The translations under genes and the position numbers were made by a program. From assembly GCF_019603315.1 (NCBI RefSeq), contig NZ_CP080649.1:62001-126000 (forward strand): 64,000 nt of DNA, given 5' to 3'. The DNA is from Ruficoccus sp. ZRK36. GTDB lineage: Bacteria > Verrucomicrobiota > Verrucomicrobiia > Opitutales > Cerasicoccaceae. Position 1 is the stretch's first letter; the number at the start of each line of letters is the position of its first letter. Shown here one piece after another: positions 1,856 to 59,838 of the stretch. The notes beneath the pieces are model-generated. The model was given only the letters and a program-made list of their open reading frames with translations. It had not been told where the DNA came from and ran no database searches.

Positions 1856-1943
1856 AGCAAATGCAGTTATTCAGTTCTCGGTTGTGCAGTTAAACAGTAT
1901 TGGGGGCGGCTTTCAGGCAAAGCAAGAAATGCTCTCCCAAAAG

Positions 1944-1980
1944 GTGATGCGAAGCATCACGGGTGCAGGGCTTGCCCTGC
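1944..1980 (-). repeat. Hairpin-block repeat after gapA (two hairpins)
   Basis: Two adjacent perfect inverted repeats: arms GTGATGC and GCATCAC around a 3-base loop (1944-1960), then arms GCAGGGC and GCCCTGC around TT (1965-1980). The same two sequences recur at 51448-51485. A degraded third arm pair may lie at 1928-1943. The block lies in the gapA-pgk gap, on the 3' side of gapA. Confidence 0.75.
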
Positions 1981-1993
1981 TTGGGGAAAGCGA

Positions 1994-14779: not shown

Positions 14780-15121
14780 GGCCTCAAGTTAGAGGCCTGC
14801 CGTCTGCGCGGCGATAAAAAAACAGAATCCTCTGCACGTGCCGAAGTAGAGTGTGCTCTGTTAACCTAATCAGTTTAAGGTGGGTGCTCTCCAACGGGCT
14901 TCTGTCTTCCGGTTTACGGCCTGACATCCACCTATCGGGCTCAAGCTCCCAGTATATGAGAAAAGGATAAGAGCAGACGTTAGGTTTCGAACACAGAAGA
15001 GGATTCTGAGAAATAACATACCCGATGCCTCGGGCATTTCAAATGGAAAAACCAGACAGTGCACGCTTTCCGGGCATCAGTCCAAAGCCTGAGACCCCGA
15101 CAAGCCAGGCCAGCCAGAAGT
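14780..15121. other. Non-coding gap, 342 bases
   Basis: No supported gene. The left part presumably holds the promoter for the 14273-14779 gene. A small hairpin with arms CCCGA and TCGGG lies near 15022-15035. Short open frames here have no ribosome site or recognisable composition. Confidence 0.5.
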
Positions 15122-22986: not shown

Positions 22987-24663
22987 GTGTCTCTCAATCC
23001 CCTTGATCTCTTCAGCAACGCCGTTCGGGCGAAAGAAATCGTCACTGTGCTGGTTCGGCACGGGTTTGGCGATCTGCTCGAACAGCTCGGCATGCCACGC
23101 GGCTGGATTAAGCGCCTCATCCCCGAGGACGCCCAGCACCTCAACCTGTGGCAGCGCATCCGCGTGGTGCTCGAAGACCTTGGCCCGACTTTTGTTAAAT
23201 TCGGACAGATTCTCAGCACCCGGCCGGACGTACTCCCCGAGCCCCTCATCGCCGAGCTCAAGCTCCTGCGTTCGAAGGTCAAGGCTGTGCCGTTCGAGCA
23301 GATCCGCCCCATCCTGCTGACTGAGCTCAAGGAGCCGATTGAGACGCATTTCTCGTCCTTTGACGAGGAGCCCGTCGCCTGTGGTTCGATTGGCCAGGTC
23401 TACCGCGCGACCTTAAAGAACGGCGGCGACCCCGTCGCGGTCAAGGTCCAGCGCCCCAACCTGAAAAAGCCGATCAAGGCCGACATCGAGATCATTGGCT
23501 GGCTGGCCCGACTGCTGCACGAAAAAGTCGAGGAGCTGCGCCCCTACGACCTGCCGGACATCGTGTCGGAAACCGGTAAGGGCATGATGCAGGAGCTGGA
23601 CTTCACCATCGAGTGCCGCAACGCCCAGTTTTTCACCGCCCTGAACCCGGACGAGGAGCATGTCTTCGCCCCGCGCGTCTACGATGAGTACACCACTGAG
23701 AAGCTGAGTGTATGCGAGTGGGTGGTCGGTGTTTCACCCGGCGACCCGTCTATCACCCCCGAGGAGGGTAAGGAGCTCGCCCGTATCGGGGGGCAGAGCA
23801 TTTTTCAGCAGATCGTCATCAGCGGCTTTTTCCACGCCGATCCGCACGGTGGCAACATCCTCATCACCGAAGACCGGCGCATCTGCTTTATCGACTGGGG
23901 GCTGGCTGGCCAGCTCACCCGCCCGATGCGCTATTTCCTGGCCGACCTCTTCGCAGCCATCGCCTCCTCCGACCCGGAGAAGGTCGTGCGCGTGATCAAC
24001 GTCATGGCCGTGGGCAAGGACCGGCTCGATGAGACCAAGCTGGAGAAGGAAATCAGCTTCGTCCTGCGCAAGTACCAGAACAAATTCGGCAAGAGTGAGC
24101 CGGTCGGCGAGATCGTACTGGAGCTGCTCTACGTCTTCGGGGTCAACGGCGTGACGCTCGCCCGTGACTACTCCCTGCTGGCCAAGGCCATCGTCTCCAT
24201 CGAGGAATCCGGCCTGGATCTGGACCCGAACTTCGACATCCGCATCATCGCGCGCCCCTACCTCAAGAAGCTCGCCTACGAGCGGTGGAATCCCCTCAAC
24301 CTGCTCAAGCAAAACTGGTGGGGCCTGCAGGGGCACTTTGCCCGCCTGCGCGAACTCCCCGGCGAGATCCAGCGGTTCTTCCGCAAGCTCGAGGACGGCG
24401 ACATCTACATCAAGCTCAAGCACGAGGGCTTCGAGCCACTGCTGAACTCTTTCGACTCCGGCGTCAACCGGCTGTCCTTCTCGATGATCATCGCGGCCCT
24501 GCTCATCGGGTCCTCGTACATCATTTCGGGTACGATTCAGGCCGGCACCGTCTCAGGCCGCTACCTGATCCACATCGCCACGGTCGGCTTCATCGGCGCA
24601 GGCGTGCTTGGCGCATGGCTGCTCTTCGACATCATCCGCCACGGTCGCCACAAAAAGAAGTGA
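22987..24663 (+). CDS. UbiB/ABC1-family atypical kinase
   Basis: 558 residues with a GTG start. Members of this family are atypical kinase/ATPases that support lipid or quinone metabolism at membranes. The family motifs are KFGQILSTRPD, then ACGSIGQVYRA (the alanine-rich nucleotide loop), VAVKVQRPN with the lysine, the catalytic DPHGGNI, and FIDWGLAG at the metal site. Two transmembrane helices close the chain (about 500-552). It is co-transcribed with the small phasin-like protein. No ubi or men gene is adjacent, so the quinone link is family knowledge only. Confidence 0.9.
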   Translation: MSLNPLDLFSNAVRAKEIVTVLVRHGFGDLLEQLGMPRGWIKRLIPEDAQHLNLWQRIRVVLEDLGPTFVKFGQILSTRPDVLPEPLIAELKLLRSKVKAVPFEQIRPILLTELKEPIETHFSSFDEEPVACGSIGQVYRATLKNGGDPVAVKVQRPNLKKPIKADIEIIGWLARLLHEKVEELRPYDLPDIVSETGKGMMQELDFTIECRNAQFFTALNPDEEHVFAPRVYDEYTTEKLSVCEWVVGVSPGDPSITPEEGKELARIGGQSIFQQIVISGFFHADPHGGNILITEDRRICFIDWGLAGQLTRPMRYFLADLFAAIASSDPEKVVRVINVMAVGKDRLDETKLEKEISFVLRKYQNKFGKSEPVGEIVLELLYVFGVNGVTLARDYSLLAKAIVSIEESGLDLDPNFDIRIIARPYLKKLAYERWNPLNLLKQNWWGLQGHFARLRELPGEIQRFFRKLEDGDIYIKLKHEGFEPLLNSFDSGVNRLSFSMIIAALLIGSSYIISGTIQAGTVSGRYLIHIATVGFIGAGVLGAWLLFDIIRHGRHKKK

Positions 24664-24670
24664 CCAAGAC

Positions 24671-24727
24671 GCAGTCCTGGACCTGTGATCCTAAGGATCG
24701 CTCTGGCATTCTCAGGAGAAAATGCCA
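24671..24727 (+). repeat. Three-hairpin block after the ubiB-like gene
   Basis: Begins 7 bases after the stop codon. It holds a decayed first hairpin (CAGTCCTGG), a second with arms GTGATCC and GGATCGC, and a third with arms TGGCATTCTC and GAAAATGCCA. The order and spacing match the copy after argS at 54804-54868. Confidence 0.75.
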
Positions 24728-24763
24728 TGGGCAATTCGCAGCCAGCGTCTGGTTTATCCCCAA

Positions 24764-24833
24764 AGGGTAGCCCTCAGTTTCAATGCTGCGCATCGACAGA
24801 GCAGCCTGCGGGTCTGGGCTGCATAAGCCCAGA
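24764..24833 (-). repeat. Three-hairpin block after the dUTPase gene
   Basis: Three consecutive inverted repeats: AGGG with CCCT (24764-24774), ATGC with GCAT around TGC (24783-24793), and TCTGGGC with GCCCAGA (24813-24833). It lies 22 bases beyond the dUTPase stop, in the convergent gap that also holds the ubiB-side block. It shares architecture rather than sequence with the other blocks. Confidence 0.5.
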
Positions 24834-28075: not shown

Positions 28076-28085
28076 CGGGTTGCAC

Positions 28086-28138
28086 CCGCTGGCATTGATG
28101 GGGCTCCGCCCCATCGCTCACTGCGTTCGCTGCCCCCT
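28086..28138 (+). repeat. Duplicated element after murA (matches one after efp)
   Basis: About 53 bases nearly identical to 50394-50447, differing at two C/T positions and in the length of the final C run. It contains a perfect inverted repeat, GATGGGGC and GCCCCATC around a 3-base loop (28097-28115), then a TCACTGCGTTCGC stretch. It starts 10 bases after the murA stop. Confidence 0.8.
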
Positions 28139-28235
28139 TAAACATGCTGATCCAGCCGGACCGAGGGTGCAGCCCACGGCTGCCGCGGTATCTAGAGGAG
28201 TGAAGCCCCAGAATAAACTTGGCGGGGGTGAAGAA

Positions 28236-47467: not shown

Positions 47468-47530
47468 ATGGTTTTGCCTTAGCAAAACCATCCCGGTGCG
47501 TAGCACCGAGGGTCCAGAGCATGCTCTTGG
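47468..47530 (-). repeat. Three-hairpin block after lpxA
   Basis: Immediately after the lpxA stop. Three inverted repeats: ATGGTTTTGC with GCAAAACCAT around CTTA (47468-47491), CGGTGC with GCACCG around GTA (47494-47508), and AGAGC with GCTCT around AT (47516-47527). The layout equals that of the 51421 copy but the arm sequences differ while staying fully paired. Confidence 0.7.
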
Positions 47531-48322
47531 TTAGCTGAAACCGCGGTCACTGCGGGCGGTAAACTCCAGCATGGCCGCCACGAGCGGATCCGTCACCTTT
47601 TCATGGGCCCGGAGCTGTTCCAGTGCTTGAGAGCGATTCAGCCCCTGACGGTAAAAGAGGCGGTACATGCCACGGATCAACTCGATCTGATCAGCGGTGA
47701 AGCCACGACGCTCGAGCCCAACCTTATTGATCGTGCGCACTTCCCCGGGGTTACCATCGACAATCATGTACGGGGGGACGTCCTGGACCACCTTTGAGCA
47801 GGCGCCCACCATGACGTGTGCCCCGAGACGGCAGAACTGGTGCACGCCCACGCCCCAGCCGACGACGACATGGTCGCCCACCACAACATGCCCGCCGAGG
47901 GCAGAGTGGCTGCTCATCACCAGACGGTCGCCGATGATGCAATCGTGCGCGATGTGGCTGTAGGCGAGGATGACGTTGTCGTTACCGACTACGGTGAACT
48001 CCTCGTCGTTCGTAGCGAGGTGGACATTCGTGTACTCGCGAAAGACATTACGGTCCCCGATTTTCAGGCCGGGATTGCCGCCCTTGAACTTCAGGTCGTG
48101 CGTTTTGGCCCCGATGTAGGCGTAGGGAAAGACCTGATTATCGCGGCCCATCTGGGTATAGCCTTCGATGGTCGCGTGATGAGCGATAACGGTCCCTGCC
48201 CCCAGCTTAACCTCCGCGCCGATATAGGCGTAGGCGCCAACGCTGACGCCCTCGGCCAGTTGGGCGCCCTCTTCGATAATAGCGGTAGGATGGATATGGG
48301 GTTCAGCCGTTGTCTTGCTCAT
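47531..48322 (-). CDS. lpxA: UDP-N-acetylglucosamine acyltransferase
   Basis: First step of lipid A synthesis, adding a 3-hydroxyacyl chain from acyl carrier protein to UDP-GlcNAc. 263 residues. Left-handed beta-helix hexapeptide repeats run from about 10 to 190, including [27 protein letters not shown]. The catalytic His lies in the [13 protein letters not shown] segment, and the helical tail begins near residue 200. It follows lpxC-fabZ with a 29-base gap, forming a lipid A operon. Confidence 0.97.
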
Positions 48323-50382: not shown

Positions 50383-50393
50383 GCAGAGTGCCT

Positions 50394-50447
50394 CCGCTGG
50401 CATTGATGGGGCTCTGCCCCATCGCTCACTGTGTTCGCTGCCCCCCT
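50394..50447 (+). repeat. Duplicated element after efp (matches one after murA)
   Basis: Nearly identical to 28086-28138, with inner arms GATGGGGC and GCCCCATC. It starts 12 bases after the efp stop codon, the same relation as the copy after murA. Confidence 0.8.
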
Positions 50448-50515
50448 AGCCGCACATGAGAATAAGGGCCCTGCCCTACGCCAGCATCACGCAGGAACGG
50501 AAGCTCCTTTAAAAG

Positions 50516-51364: not shown

Positions 51365-51395
51365 GAAAAAACCCCGCCACACGGGCGGGGTTTCG
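51365..51395. terminator. Bidirectional intrinsic terminator
   Basis: Arms CCCCGCC and GGCGGGG with a 5-base loop, preceded by six A and followed by three T. It lies between pdp (ends 51495) and the SGNH gene start, both minus, and stops pdp transcription. Confidence 0.85.
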
Positions 51396-51420
51396 TAAAA
51401 GAAGTCTGGTCGCTTGCACT

Positions 51421-51485
51421 CTGGCATTTTTCCAGAAAATGCCAGCGGTGATGCGAAGCATCACGGGTGCAGGGCAATGCCCTGC
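51421..51485 (-). repeat. Three-hairpin block after pdp
   Basis: Starts 9 bases beyond the pdp stop codon. In order away from the gene: GCAGGGC with GCCCTGC around AAT (51469-51485), GTGATGC with GCATCAC around GAA (51448-51464), and CTGGCATTTT with AAAATGCCAG around a 5-base loop (51421-51445). The best preserved complete copy together with 54804-54868. Confidence 0.85.
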
Positions 51486-51494
51486 CCTGCCTGT

Positions 51495-52838
51495 TTAGGC
51501 GACGCGCTCGACGATGAGTTCCGGCGGATTCGGGCGCTTGGGAGCGAGGCGGTAGGCGCTGCGCAGGTACTCCAGAGCACTCTCCAGCTTGGACTCATCG
51601 TTGTAGTGGATCATCATGAGCGGCTCACCCTGCTTGACCTGGGTGCCGACCTTCTTGATCTCGGAAACACCGACAGCCGGGTCCATCTTCGCGCCCTTCT
51701 TGCTCGAAGAGGCGAGGATCTGCACACCGCGGGCGATCATGCCAGCGTTGATGGTGTGCACGTAGCCGCGCTTGGGAGCGGGCAGCTTGCGGATGTACTT
51801 GGCGGTCGGGAATTTATCCGGATCGTCGATGACGGAGGTGTCGCCACCCTGAGCGGCGAGCATTTCCTTAAACTTTTCTAGAGCCGAGCCATCCTTGAGG
51901 TGCTTCTGCACGGTCTGCTTGGCCGAGAGTGTCGAACCGGCAACACCGGCGAGGCGGACGATTTCCATCCCGAGCTTGAGCACGAGTTCCTTCAGGTCCT
52001 CGGGGCCTTCACCCTTGAGCAGTTCGATGGCCTCACGCAGTTCCAGAGCGGTACCGACCGTGTCGCCCAGCGGCTGGTTCATATCGGTAACGAGTGCCAC
52101 GCAGCGGCGCTTCATACTGCGGCCCACACGGGTGATGCTGCGGGCGAGCTGCTTGGCCTGCTCCAGATCCTTGACGAAGGAACCGTTGCCCCACTTCACG
52201 TCAACGACGAGACCTTCCGCTCCTTCCGCCAGCTTTTTGCTGAGGATGCTGCCGGTGATGAGCGGCAGGCTCTGGATGGTCGCCGTGTTCTGGCGCAGTT
52301 CATAGAGGATGCCGTCCACCGGAGCGATTTCCGGGTGCTGCTGCACGATGGCGCAGTTAACGGTCTTGAGCTGCTTGACAAAATCCTTGAGCTCGATGCC
52401 GGCCTTAAATTTCGGGACAGCCGAGAGCTTGTCGAGGGTGCTGATGACGAAGTTTTCGTCCACGCCGTTCATGGCGGGCATGACAACGCCGCAGGCAGCC
52501 GCCAAAGGCGTCAGCACGAGCGAGGTCTTGTCGCCGACGCCACCGGTGGAGTACTTGGCGATCTTCGGCTTGGTGATCTTGGACAGGTCGATGACCTCAC
52601 CGGAAAGCATCATCTCCTCGGCAAAAGTGGCCGTCTCCTGAGCGGACATGTTTTGGAAGTAGATAGCCATGGCCAATGCGGCCATTTGGAACTCGGGCAT
52701 CTCCTTATCCAGAATAGAATCGACAATGAAGCGGATCTCATCCTCGTTGAACTCTCCTCCATCCCGTTTTTTCTCGATCAGATACGAAAAAGAGGGCTTG
52801 ATGAACTTCCGCGACGCAAGTAAGGTTTTCTCTGCCAT
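51495..52838 (-). CDS. Divergent pyrimidine-nucleoside/thymidine phosphorylase
   Basis: 447 residues. Family motifs are KYSTGGVGDKTSLVLTPLAAACG (phosphate site), the LITGSILSKKLAEG helix, VVDVKWGNGSFV, ALVTDMNQPLGDTVG and an Arg in ELRQNTATIQS. However, the usual GRGLGHTGGTLDKLE reads NGVDENFVISTLDKLS (124-139), so the conserved His and Gly-Gly are missing. This may change the substrate or reduce activity. It has an imperfect palindrome just upstream of its start. Without the expected motif I leave the gene symbol empty. Confidence 0.85.
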   Translation of the reverse strand: MAEKTLLASRKFIKPSFSYLIEKKRDGGEFNEDEIRFIVDSILDKEMPEFQMAALAMAIYFQNMSAQETATFAEEMMLSGEVIDLSKITKPKIAKYSTGGVGDKTSLVLTPLAAACGVVMPAMNGVDENFVISTLDKLSAVPKFKAGIELKDFVKQLKTVNCAIVQQHPEIAPVDGILYELRQNTATIQSLPLITGSILSKKLAEGAEGLVVDVKWGNGSFVKDLEQAKQLARSITRVGRSMKRRCVALVTDMNQPLGDTVGTALELREAIELLKGEGPEDLKELVLKLGMEIVRLAGVAGSTLSAKQTVQKHLKDGSALEKFKEMLAAQGGDTSVIDDPDKFPTAKYIRKLPAPKRGYVHTINAGMIARGVQILASSSKKGAKMDPAVGVSEIKKVGTQVKQGEPLMMIHYNDESKLESALEYLRSAYRLAPKRPNPPELIVERVA

Positions 52839-53025: not shown

Positions 53026-54801
53026 ATGGATATTGCCTTTGATACGGCCCGCGAGCTGGCCCGCCTCGTTGCTGAGGCTGCGGCTGCCTGCGCAGACTTT
53101 GACGAAAACTTCGAGCCGAGCGTACGCACGGCTGAGCCCCGCTTCGGCGACTACCAGGCCAACGGCGTGCTGCCCTTTGCCAAGCGCAAGAAGACCAACC
53201 CCCGCGCCCTCGCCCAACAGCTCGTGGACGAGCTCAGCAAGGCCCCGCTCTTCGCAGAGGGCATGGCCAGCCTCGAAATCGCTGGCCCCGGCTTCATTAA
53301 CATCACGCTCACGCCCGCCTACAAGTTTGCCTGGATCAAGAAGTTCCGCGACGAGTCGAACTTCGCCGACGGGGCCGGAAGCCTCCTCGCGGGCAAGACC
53401 GTGGTGGTGGACTATCCCTCCCCCAACACCGCCAAGCAGATGCACATCGGCCACCTGCGCCCGATGGTGATCGGTGAGGCCGTGGCCCGCCTGATCGACT
53501 TCTGCGGCGCCAAGACCATCCGCGACAACCACATCGGCGACTGGGGCACGAACTTCGGCACCCTTATCATGGCTATCAAGCGTGAGGGCTACGACCTCGA
53601 CGCCGCCGGGGATGACGCCCTCGCCCAGATCGAACGCCTCTATAAAGAAGGCACCTCACTGGAAAAAGCCGACGAGACCGGTGCCATCCGCGATCAATCC
53701 CGCGCCGAGCTGGTCAAGCTCCAGGAGGGCGACACCGAGAACACCGCGCTATGGGAAAAAATCGTCGCCACCAGTAACAAGGCCTTTGAGCGCATCTACG
53801 CCATGCTCGGCGTGCACCCCGACGTCACTCTTGGCGAGAGCTTTTACCGCGACAAGGTGCAGCGCATCTACGACGAGCTGAGCGAGTGCGGCCTGGCCGA
53901 GGAGAGCGACGGCGCACTAGTGGTCTTCCACCCCGAGCACCCGCGCTTCAATGAGCAGCCCTTTATCGTCCGTAAAAAAGACGGCGCCAGCAACTACGCC
54001 GGGACCGACCTGGCCACCCTGCTCTACCGCCGCGAGCACTTCGGCGCGGACGAGGTCGTTTACCTGACCGACGGCCGCCAGCGCGACCACTTCGAGCAGC
54101 TCTTCCTCACCGCCAGTAAGTGGTTCGAGAAAAAGGGCTACGAGCTGCCCAAGCTCTCCCACGTCTGGTGGGGCGCCATCCTCGGCAACGACGGCAAGGC
54201 CATCAAAACCCGCTCCGGCGAGCCAATCTACCTGGAGGCTCTCCTCAACGAGGCCACCGAGCGCGCCCGCGCCATCGTCGACGAAAAGAGCCCCGACCTC
54301 TCCGACGAGGAAAAGCAGACCATCGCCCGCGCCGTCGGCCTCGGAGCCGTCCGCTATGCCGACCTTTCGCAGAACCGCACGCAGGACTACGTCTTTGCGT
54401 GGGACAAGCTGCTGGCCTTCGAGGGTAACTCCGCCCCCTACCTGCTCATGGCCGTGGCCCGCGTGCACTCGATCTTCCGCAAGGCTGGGGCCGCCCCCGG
54501 CGACCCGGCCACTGAGGCTGAGGCCTCCTGCCTGGAAACCGAGGAAGAGCTCGCCCTCTCCCGCAAGCTGATGGGCTTCCCGGAGGCGATCACGCTGGCC
54601 GTCTCCGACCTGCGCCCGCACCACCTGTGCACGTACCTGTACGAGCTGGCCGGGGACTTCAGCACGTTCTTCAACGCCAACCGCGTCGTTGTCGATGAAG
54701 CCGATGTGCGCGCCCGCCGTCTCATGCTCTGCGCCCGCACCGTGAGCACCCTGGAGACCGGCCTGCGCCTCCTCGGCATCACCCCGCTGGAGCGCATGTG
54801 A
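53026..54801 (+). CDS. argS: Arginyl-tRNA synthetase
   Basis: Class I aminoacyl-tRNA synthetase, 591 residues. The N-terminal Add-1 domain comes first. The signature PSPNTAKQMHIGHLRPMVIGEAVAR carries HIGH. The second signature region reads AIKTRSGEPIYL, lacking the canonical KMSK, which is common for ArgRS. The helical anticodon-binding domain ends in the usual LLGITPLERM. Cytoplasmic. A three-hairpin block follows its stop codon. It is divergent from the phosphorylase gene. Confidence 0.97.
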   Translation: MDIAFDTARELARLVAEAAAACADFDENFEPSVRTAEPRFGDYQANGVLPFAKRKKTNPRALAQQLVDELSKAPLFAEGMASLEIAGPGFINITLTPAYKFAWIKKFRDESNFADGAGSLLAGKTVVVDYPSPNTAKQMHIGHLRPMVIGEAVARLIDFCGAKTIRDNHIGDWGTNFGTLIMAIKREGYDLDAAGDDALAQIERLYKEGTSLEKADETGAIRDQSRAELVKLQEGDTENTALWEKIVATSNKAFERIYAMLGVHPDVTLGESFYRDKVQRIYDELSECGLAEESDGALVVFHPEHPRFNEQPFIVRKKDGASNYAGTDLATLLYRREHFGADEVVYLTDGRQRDHFEQLFLTASKWFEKKGYELPKLSHVWWGAILGNDGKAIKTRSGEPIYLEALLNEATERARAIVDEKSPDLSDEEKQTIARAVGLGAVRYADLSQNRTQDYVFAWDKLLAFEGNSAPYLLMAVARVHSIFRKAGAAPGDPATEAEASCLETEEELALSRKLMGFPEAITLAVSDLRPHHLCTYLYELAGDFSTFFNANRVVVDEADVRARRLMLCARTVSTLETGLRLLGITPLERM

Positions 54802-54803
54802 TA

Positions 54804-54868
54804 GGCAGGACAGAGTCCTGCACCTGTGATCCTCCGGATCACCCTGGCATTTTCAGGAGAAAATGCCA
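54804..54868 (+). repeat. Three-hairpin block after argS
   Basis: Starts 3 bases after the argS stop. Arms in order: GCAGGAC with GTCCTGC (54805-54821), GTGATCC with GGATCAC (54826-54842), and TGGCATTTTC with GAAAATGCCA (54845-54868). All three are perfect, with 3- or 4-base loops. Confidence 0.88.
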
Positions 54869-54947
54869 TGACGCAGTTTTGGCGCCCTACGCATCATAGA
54901 TTACAATACACTTTACCCAGATCAGGTGAGAGCGCATACTCGTGCCC

Positions 54948-57865: not shown

Positions 57866-57931
57866 TTGGGGCTTCTCGCCCCAAGCCCCAGCTCAAGGCA
57901 TAGCCTTGAGGATCCTCGATGCTGCGCATCG
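57866..57931 (+). repeat. Three-hairpin block after the isomerase terminator
   Basis: TTGGGGC with GCCCCAA (57866-57884), CTCAAGGC with GCCTTGAG around ATA (57892-57910), and CGATGC with GCATCG around TGC (57917-57931). It shares the three-hairpin plan and the 3-base loops, but not the arm sequences, of the argS and pdp copies. Confidence 0.6.
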
Positions 57932-57984
57932 TGTCAGCGATTTAACATTGCTAGCACGTTCGTTGGCCAAGAAAACCGCGTTCA

Positions 57985-58048
57985 TGGCATTTTCCCCTGA
58001 ATACACCAAGGTGATCCGCAGGATCACGGGGGCAGGACTTAGGCCCGC
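57985..58048 (-). repeat. Three-hairpin block after gmhB
   Basis: The middle hairpin GTGATCC with GGATCAC around GCA (58011-58027) is perfect. The outer two (GCAGGACTT... and ATGGCATTTTCC...) are partly decayed. It abuts the gmhB stop codon, in the same order as the argS and pdp copies. Confidence 0.7.
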
Positions 58049-58582
58049 CTATGCCAGCGTGGCCACGAAGGCGGCCAGATCAGCGAAGACGGCGACACCG
58101 TTTTCGTCGATATAGGTACGAGCCTTTTCGTCGAAGTCCTTCCCCGTGCGCACAGCGACGGGGTGGATACCGGCGTTGACGCCCGCTCCCCAGTCGCTCG
58201 TGCGATCACCCACCATGTAGCATTGCTCCGGGTCGAGCGCGTGCGCCGTGGTCATCTCGTGGATGAAGCGCGGGGACGGCTTACGGTACGCGCTGTCCTC
58301 CTCGGGATGCTCAGGCGCGATGCAAATATCGGTAAACAGGTCCTCCCCCAGCCCGAGCTGCTCCAGCATGTAGGCATTGCAGATATGCACGTCCTCCAGC
58401 GTGTAAATACCGCGCCCCACCCCGCTCTGGTTGGTAAAGAGAAAGAGCAGGTAGCCCAGCTCGCGCGCCTGCTTCAGCGCGTCCACCGCGTTGGGCAGCA
58501 GGTGGACATCCTCCGGCTTGTGCGGATAGTGGGTATCCTCAATGATCGTCCCGTCCCGGTCCAGAAAGAGTGCTTTGTTCAT
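58049..58582 (-). CDS. GmhB-like HAD-IIIA phosphatase
   Basis: 177 residues. HAD motifs are ALFLDRDGTIIEDTHY (nucleophile Asp and acid Asp), LFLFTNQSGVGRG, and YMVGDRTSDWGAG. This matches D-glycero-D-manno-heptose 1,7-bisphosphate 7-phosphatase for LPS heptose synthesis. In E. coli GmhB four residues form a zinc loop (Cys, His, Cys, Cys). Here only CIAPEHPEEDSAYRKPSP is seen, so two of these cysteines are missing. HisB-N histidinol phosphatase is the alternative. Confidence 0.85.
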   Translation of the reverse strand: MNKALFLDRDGTIIEDTHYPHKPEDVHLLPNAVDALKQARELGYLLFLFTNQSGVGRGIYTLEDVHICNAYMLEQLGLGEDLFTDICIAPEHPEEDSAYRKPSPRFIHEMTTAHALDPEQCYMVGDRTSDWGAGVNAGIHPVAVRTGKDFDEKARTYIDENGVAVFADLAAFVATLA

Positions 58583-58662
58583 GTCAGGGGCTTATCCAAC
58601 GCCTTTTCCAGAGGGTCGCAAGCATAGCCAATGAAAAACAACTCCGGCTGGAGCAGCCTAAG

Positions 58663-58704
58663 CCATCCGCAGGATCACAAGTGCAAGGAGTTAGTCCTGC
58701 CCTG
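58663..58704 (-). repeat. Partial hairpin block after pepP
   Basis: Adjacent to the pepP stop. A decayed GCAAGGA and TCCTGC pair (58683-58700) and the ATCC/GGAT pair with GCA loop (58665-58676). The third hairpin is absent. Order agrees with the other blocks. Confidence 0.55.
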
Positions 58705-59838
58705 CTAAGCGATTTCCCACTCGTAGGGAGCCTCGGAGAGCAGGTCGTAGCCGTCATCCAGCACCTGGACGACGTCCTCGATGCGGCAGCCACCCAGCCC
58801 CGGATAGTACAGGCCAGGCTCGACCGTGACGACGACGCCCTTTTTCAGCCGGTCGCCCACCGGGCTCATGCGCGGAGACTCGTGGATCTCCAGCCCGAGA
58901 CCGTGCCCGGTACTGTGGATAAAGCCTTCCCAGACACCACGCGATTGGCCGGTGACGTAGCCCGTCTGCTTAAAGATCCGGTCCACTTCGGCATGGATCG
59001 TCTTGCCGTTGACGCCAGCCTTGATTCCCGCGAGCGCCGCCCGTTGTGCCTTGTGCACGGTATCGACGAGCTTCTTCTGCTCGGGCGAAGCCTTGCCCTT
59101 AAGAAAGGTGCGGGTCATGTCACCATGATAACCGCTGTGCATGATGCGCGGAAAGACATCCACGATGATCAACTCGTTGGCCTTGAGTGGGCCCTCGCCC
59201 ACCGCATGCGGATCGCATGCCTGGTCTCCACCGGCCGCGATCACGTGGTTGGCCAGGCCGCCTTCCTCCATACACGCCAGCTGGATCAGCGTGCGCAGAC
59301 GCTCCGAGGTGAGGCGCTTGCCCTTCAGCCACAGCTCGTCTCCGCGAATCTCCGCAGCTTCCAGCGCCTTGCGGACCGCGTCGATACCGACGGCGGCCAC
59401 GCGGTTTCCCTCGCGGATCGCCTCAGCTTCGGCCTCGGTCTTGGTCTCGCGTTGCGGGAAAAACGCGCCCTCGATCGGCTGAATATCGAGCCCGGCCTTC
59501 ATGAGCTTGAGTGCGAGCCCGGCCGGAAAATTCTCCGGCACGTGAAAGCTCTTCAAGCCACGGTCCTCCGCCAGCAAGCGGATGATCTCTGCCGGTCCCG
59601 GGCGGGTCGACTTGTAGATCTTCTTGGCGCGGGCCATCAGATCCTCATAGGGCAGGAGCGCATCCAGCGCAGATTGCTTTTCGGCACGGCCGAACTCCAG
59701 CCGGGAAAAGACGCCCAAACGTGTGCGCCCGACCTGCATAAGGATCACCGGATCGGGAACGAAGAACCCCGCGAAGTAAAGCGCATCGGCGCTTTCCTCG
59801 GTCGAGGCGTACAAGAGCTTTGCATTCGTCGCAGTCAT
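58705..59838 (-). CDS. M24-family Xaa-Pro aminopeptidase-like metallopeptidase
   Basis: 377 residues from the ATG giving MTATNAKLLYAST. The N-terminal creatinase-like domain (1-135) is shortened. The pita-bread catalytic domain has the two-metal ligands: Asp in IIVDVFPR, Asp in GDMTRTF, His in HSTGHGLGLEIHE, Glu in TVEPGLYY, and Glu in RIEDVV. The domain is complete. Removes N-terminal residues before proline in the cytoplasm, or acts as a dipeptidase. No specific gene name is safe. Confidence 0.9.
   Translation of the reverse strand: MTATNAKLLYASTEESADALYFAGFFVPDPVILMQVGRTRLGVFSRLEFGRAEKQSALDALLPYEDLMARAKKIYKSTRPGPAEIIRLLAEDRGLKSFHVPENFPAGLALKLMKAGLDIQPIEGAFFPQRETKTEAEAEAIREGNRVAAVGIDAVRKALEAAEIRGDELWLKGKRLTSERLRTLIQLACMEEGGLANHVIAAGGDQACDPHAVGEGPLKANELIIVDVFPRIMHSGYHGDMTRTFLKGKASPEQKKLVDTVHKAQRAALAGIKAGVNGKTIHAEVDRIFKQTGYVTGQSRGVWEGFIHSTGHGLGLEIHESPRMSPVGDRLKKGVVVTVEPGLYYPGLGGCRIEDVVQVLDDGYDLLSEAPYEWEIA

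Follow-up and report, generated by a model that had tools for sequence, protein, structure and literature searches.

In E. coli, an earlier study proposed that 260 of 496 REPs act from close to the stop codon and can stall ribosomes, and REPs within 15 nt of the stop affect translation termination (PMC12306157). Palindromic repeats are known in the Verrucomicrobiota as well: GTAG repeats inside genes are most numerous in Opitutus terrae (PMC3733652). Perfect stems can be created and maintained by template switching between the arms of a hairpin, as has been documented (PMC8794818). Here we analyze blocks of consecutive hairpins found in a window of 64,000 nucleotides from Ruficoccus sp. ZRK36 (NZ_CP080649.1, positions 62,001 to 126,000). 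The block behind argS belongs to a palindromic repeat family that is dispersed and mosaic, and represents its left module. We consider it probable, with moderate rather than high confidence, that such blocks are modules of genus-specific, short, non-coding, mosaic palindromic repeats working like REP/BIME/REPIN elements.

The argS block and its copies in the window

The argS block (window 54805-54868) comprises three adjacent perfect hairpins with stems of 7, 7 and 10 bp and loops of 3, 3 and 4 nt: hp1 (GCAGGAC-AGA-GTCCTGC, 54805..54821, + strand), which starts 3 nt past the argS stop codon (TGA, 54799-54801), an ACCT linker, hp2 (GTGATCC-TCC-GGATCAC, 54826..54842, +), a CC linker, and hp3 (TGGCATTTTC-AGGA-GAAAATGCCA, 54845..54868, +). 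The original prediction of three-hairpin blocks at gene ends was correct at argS and at further copies in the window, and the gene names it used (argS, pdp, ubiB-like, lpxA, gmhB, a PepQ/PepP-like peptidase and gapA) have NCBIfam support; the tiny 3-base loops it described are found in the first two hairpins, the third loop having 4 bases.

Strong left-module copies were identified with a covariance model at argS itself (54804-54871, +), flush with the stop codon of a ubiB-like gene (gene 22987-24663; copy 24663..24730, +), 8 nt past the stop of pdp (gene 51495-52838, -; copy 51419..51486, -) and overlapping the stop codon of a gmhB-like gene (gene 58049-58582, -; copy 57982..58049, -). The strong list also includes a somewhat weaker copy (58633..58701, -), 3 nt past the stop of a PepQ/PepP-like gene (58705-59838, -), and a two-hairpin copy (hp2, hp1; 1927..1981, -), which lies between gapA and pgk at a distance of about 65 nt from the gapA stop and has an identical 29-mer in common with the pdp copy. 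The divergent copy behind lpxA (gene 47531-48322, -; copy 47468..47530, -), which is outside the strong covariance-model list, reproduces the architecture of the argS block with every arm different and the pairing intact, just as had been noticed at the outset. Remnants of further modules are also present: behind the ubiB-like gene, a spacer and a degenerate right module (24731..24833, +), with CAGTTTCAATG, truncated hp4/hp5 and hp7 (TCTGGGCTGCATAAGCCCAGA, 24813-24833), take up most of the convergent gap, and the gap shared with the gmhB-like copy, also convergent, contains a truncated right module with hp7/hp6/hp5-type hairpins (57866..57931, -).

The intergenic regions of the window contain 29 hairpins versus about 3.7 in shuffled sequences, and the convergent gaps 9 versus 0.5, an excess that is more than chance; the density is 4.7 hairpins per kb between genes versus 1.1 per kb within them.

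Modular architecture and placement behind stop codons

The family is dispersed over the genome (G000). BLAST searches with the 65-nt argS block found 42 matches, and a covariance model of the block (R1) at least about 105 matches at E<0.01; left modules in the genome number roughly 100. A second model (R2), built for hp4-hp5 of the right module, found about 50 strong copies in this genome and many in the other three genomes of the genus. Of 177 genomes of the order, only the four members of the genus gave matches, apart from a single weak match in a sister genus. An exact scan of 84,980 species, from which the own genome was possibly left out, detected the hp5 core only in MAGs of the Verrucomicrobiota/Verrucomicrobiia. 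The family is confined almost entirely to the genus. The intergenic enrichment of hairpins is absent or weak in other genera (G004, G013), so this enrichment is not a general trait of the order. Draft contigs of one congener, G001 (L130, L132, L133, L136, L143), often end near hp4 copies, perhaps due to assembly breaks at perfect palindromes or to recent identical copies.

In a composite element, the left module is followed by a spacer, the motif GGTGGCGACCCAGTTTTGATG, hp4, ACA, hp5 (CGATGCGCAGCATCG), AAAGTG, hp6 and hp7, the right module thus comprising an 18-22-bp hairpin (hp4), whose outer arms (CAGCG..) are more conserved than its interior, and hp5-hp7. The left position is taken by hp1-hp2-hp3 or by any of several other hairpin modules, e.g. 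GATGGGGCTCCGCCCCATCGCTCACTGCGTTCGCTGCCCC, and left modules, spacer and right module occur in several combinations, forming mosaic clusters. The three different stems in fixed order that had been proposed as the signature of the blocks do characterize argS-type copies, but the set is not obligatory, as hp3 is often exchanged for unrelated hairpins. A second dispersed module (GATGGGGCTCYGCCCCATCGCTCACTGYGTTCGCTGCCCC), present in the window behind murA and efp (28081-28140 and 50389-50448, 92% identical), doubles as an alternative left module of composites. The spacer is 39-49 nt long in 13 of 18 joined copies and variable in sequence; in composites of the own genome (e.g. C1:22300-22502 and C1:2628701-2628909) it is length-constrained and variable with a conserved 3' end (GGTGGCGACCCAG), a stretch for which none of the proposed explanations accounts.

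The gene context was analyzed in 522 kb around the matches with a home-made dicodon gene caller, and hence gene starts are less certain than stops. Only 6 of 90 left modules overlap called genes, mostly at the gene 3' end; the other 84 are distributed over convergent (38), tandem (45) and divergent (1) gaps, and 83 of them border a stop codon. Compared with the intergenic bases of the window, divergent gaps are depleted (p ~1e-10) and convergent gaps enriched (p ~6e-9). Copies within genes or at random positions, which the original prediction had named as the mark of a chance association, are therefore not what was found.

The placement is not only nearly exclusive to stop codons but also flush at the hp1 end. 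Where hp1 faces a stop codon (n=64), it starts at most 4 nt from it in 33 copies, and in 8 further copies the stop codon lies inside hp1 (CAGGGCATAGCCCTG), so the description of the blocks as locked to stop codons is borne out. Uniform placement would give 5.0 flush copies, with a maximum of 12 in 20000 simulations; when, conservatively, the 150 nt downstream were counted as element in the simulation, the excess is weaker (25 expected vs 33 observed, p = 0.0005). The opposite end of the left module is flush in only 4 of 57 cases, and the right-module end mostly stays 40-67 nt short of the stop that it faces, which is just room for hp6-hp7. TAG is the stop codon in 27 of the 41 near-flush or overlapping cases (p = 0.0003). 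In the relatives, hp1 lies at most 4 nt from the stop or contains it in 11 of 17 copies (offsets -12, -11, -2, -2, -1, 0, 1, 2, 2, 2 and 4). The link to gene ends is strong, whereas the orientation to transcription is not fixed: the hairpin order coincides with the direction of transcription in the window copies, as originally reported, but in tandem gaps genome-wide hp1 points towards the stop in 26 cases and away from it in 19, i.e. the orientation there is free.

The position between convergent genes and the stable hairpins on both strands could be taken to suggest that recombination has spread intrinsic or bidirectional terminators of transcription. However, T-runs were found on the relevant side in only 2/64 and 1/57 left-module sites (3/121 ends) and in none of the 78 right-module ends, and canonical terminators are separate from the elements, being as rare near them (8/171) as elsewhere (14/194). 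As the hairpins lack a following U-tract, we rejected the identification of the copies as intrinsic terminators and regard this explanation as highly improbable. Searches of Rfam 15 with 10 loci revealed nothing relevant, even at E values of up to 1; in the window, they identified only a 6S RNA gene elsewhere (14825-15005, -), above the Rfam gathering score.

Arm covariation: DNA copying or RNA selection

The arms covary, as predicted. In the seed alignment, 29 cells show two-sided changes and no cell a one-sided change, and at sites beside orthologous genes of two species in the same orientation, 50 of 50 changed pairs are two-sided; 5 further site pairs beside orthologous genes are in flipped orientation. 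The stems of the family remain perfectly complementary while their sequence drifts: among 119 unique hp4 copies with 98 distinct arms, 94 are perfectly complementary, and the arms diverge between copies by 32% per site. The 2468 hp4 pairs include 13 G-T, 3 A-C and 23 other departures. RNA stems normally retain an appreciable fraction of wobbles, and their near-absence from hp4 (0.5% of pairs) is indicative of a process at the level of DNA or of simultaneous selection on the two strands. The shorter stems of the left module do exhibit single-sided departures, with a G-T:A-C ratio of 73:58 overall and 16:16 at sense-tandem sites, where transcription should be limited to the sense strand and RNA selection would predict an excess of G-T. 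Since the hairpin finder favoured G-T over A-C in its scoring, this test was biased towards RNA, yet no clear G-T excess was seen. Selection for structure, which the original prediction regarded as implied by the paired arms, is thus not a necessary reading.

The possibility that the hairpins are 3'-UTR RNA structures under selection, which shield the 3' ends of mRNAs or impede the ribosome at termination, has to be weighed here. The RNA fold of the argS block consists of exactly the three hairpins (z = -5.0 versus dinucleotide shuffles; about -5 on either strand), and the strong folding of the sense strand, the flush position, the restriction to 3' ends and the E. coli precedent (PMC12306157) agree with a role in RNA. 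The copy behind pdp is located between the stop codon and a canonical intrinsic terminator (51369-51393), i.e. the latter is farther downstream, and this copy is thus probably transcribed. The few wobbles of hp4 are G-T more often than A-C (13:3), a hint of some tolerance at the level of RNA and the main point against a DNA-level reading. On the other hand, the 26:19 orientation in tandem gaps leaves no fixed relation to transcription, G-T and A-C are about equally frequent in left modules including the sense-tandem sites, and the scarcity of hp4 wobbles is coupled with 0/50 one-sided changes. Altogether, we find selected 3'-UTR structures rather unlikely as the main explanation.

The covariation fits DNA-level copying of arms at least as well as RNA selection, and the pattern of wobbles and two-sided changes favours maintenance of the palindromes at the level of DNA. 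Arm identity may be maintained at the DNA level by inter-arm template switching during replication, in which one arm would be repaired or rewritten from the other; such a step, which we infer, would explain two-sided changes without intermediates. Or perhaps only perfect palindromes get mobilised? Our tentative and rather doubtful further suggestion is that of a family without RAYT placed precisely behind stop codons, in which arm-onto-arm DNA copying would produce two-sided changes in one step, with neither wobble intermediates nor RNA selection, and in which an as yet unknown enzyme would recognize the hp1 end and the stop-codon context. Covariation normally counts as proof of RNA structure; here about 120 copies provide 98 different, nearly perfect long stems with almost no wobbles, and the family may therefore serve to tell RNA under selection apart from template-switch copying of DNA arms.

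Turnover, mobilisation and likeness to known systems

The modules turn over between the species of the genus, both in content and in orientation. At one convergent pair of genes, a single left module spans the own gap of 63 bp exactly, from one stop codon to the other, and the 128-bp gap of the relative is without a left module. One gene has a composite at its 3' end in one of two species, the other species having a left module in reverse orientation there (L083/L180); one gap has two copies in G002 and none in the own genome, and a composite common to two species has a species-specific hp4 (L106/L142). The subfamilies of hp4 differ by species, and six copies in G002 (loci L153-L156 and others) exhibit an identical hp4 arm, which suggests a recent burst. 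That the module behind an orthologous gene differs, flips or is missing between congeners also speaks against selected 3'-UTR structures. The reading of L115/L134, the best candidate for an empty site, as a clean one was given up, as in a global alignment the pair also fits an orthologous, rearranged copy; the 9-bp direct repeat at L115 (CTTGGCAAG) is, given the ambiguous alignment, only a candidate target-site duplication. A different intergenic repeat, roughly CACAAAGGCACAAAGACACAAAG, fills some of the gaps between genes in congeners (L125, L144, L160).

Short palindromes, mosaic clusters and the extragenic 3' location, as well as compensatory spacer changes like those of REPINs (PMC3116915), would be expected of classical REP/REPIN elements mobilised by a RAYT, with the transposase lost from the genome, and the congener G001 indeed possesses at least three Y1_Tnp genes. 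However, no RAYT-type Y1_Tnp gene (PF01797) was found in G000, where such genes had been suggested, or in G002 and G003, i.e. in three of the four genomes of the genus, all with many copies, and neither left nor right modules are present near the Y1 genes of G001 (loci up to ~1.5 kb on each side). A GTAG tag does not recur at the foot of the left module: among 41 flush copies it is seen only where a G happens to precede a TAG stop codon. The link to RAYT was rejected on the distribution of the Y1_Tnp genes and modules, and we deem this explanation quite unlikely. Searches for reverse transcriptase (PF00078) and IS110 (PF01548) gave no match, and one DDE_Tnp_1 gene was found.

The placement, the mosaic nature and the turnover between species are consistent with REP/BIME/REPIN-like palindromic elements that do not move autonomously, and this is the explanation we prefer. 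The modules would be non-autonomous DNA elements spread by an enzyme or by recombination between copies, and their positions would result from the purging of insertions in genes and promoters together with a preference of the hp1 end for the base directly behind the stop codon. Once in place, the copies may have secondary effects on the termination of translation or on mRNA 3' ends; the former effect is plausible by analogy, because E. coli REPs close to the stop act in this way. What counts against our explanation is that no mobilising enzyme and no clean target-site duplication were identified, that the hp4 wobbles lean to G-T, and that the flush excess shrinks in the conservative simulation.

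The way in which the family works thus fits REP/BIME/REPIN elements, and the REP/BIME-like character proposed originally is supported. As in the REP/BIME elements of E. coli, high-copy short palindromes are extragenic, located at gene 3' ends and arranged in mosaic motif clusters, but here several different stems follow a modular order, hp4 is 18-22 bp long and the hp1 end is flush within 4 nt. A recurrent GTAG/CGTC tag at the foot of the left module and the REP-flanked RAYT gene of the GTAG type were not found. Because neither this genome nor two of its congeners have the defining RAYT gene, and the tag does not recur in left modules, we do not assign these repeats to the REP family. The REPINs of Pseudomonas fluorescens SBW25 are also built of a palindromic unit whose hairpin-forming spacer is constrained in length, and compensatory changes are common in them (PMC3116915), whereas the present family has several hairpins per unit, a strict association with stop codons and no RAYT. 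The GTAG/CGTC-tagged REP superfamilies, including GTAG-17/19/20 of Opitutus terrae, resemble it in their 6-9-bp stems, short loops and abundance in a member of the Verrucomicrobiota (PMC3733652), and differ in that here no tag recurs at the foot of hairpin 1 and very few copies are inside genes. The mitochondrial double and triple hairpin-forming elements are likewise multi-hairpin intergenic units with a scattered distribution and no known adaptive function, but belong to organelle genomes, and no stop-codon lock is seen in the part of their description consulted (PMC2800124). With this family, the range of stop-codon-adjacent REPs, which are known from E. coli, extends to a genus of the Verrucomicrobiota that keeps them without the usual RAYT.
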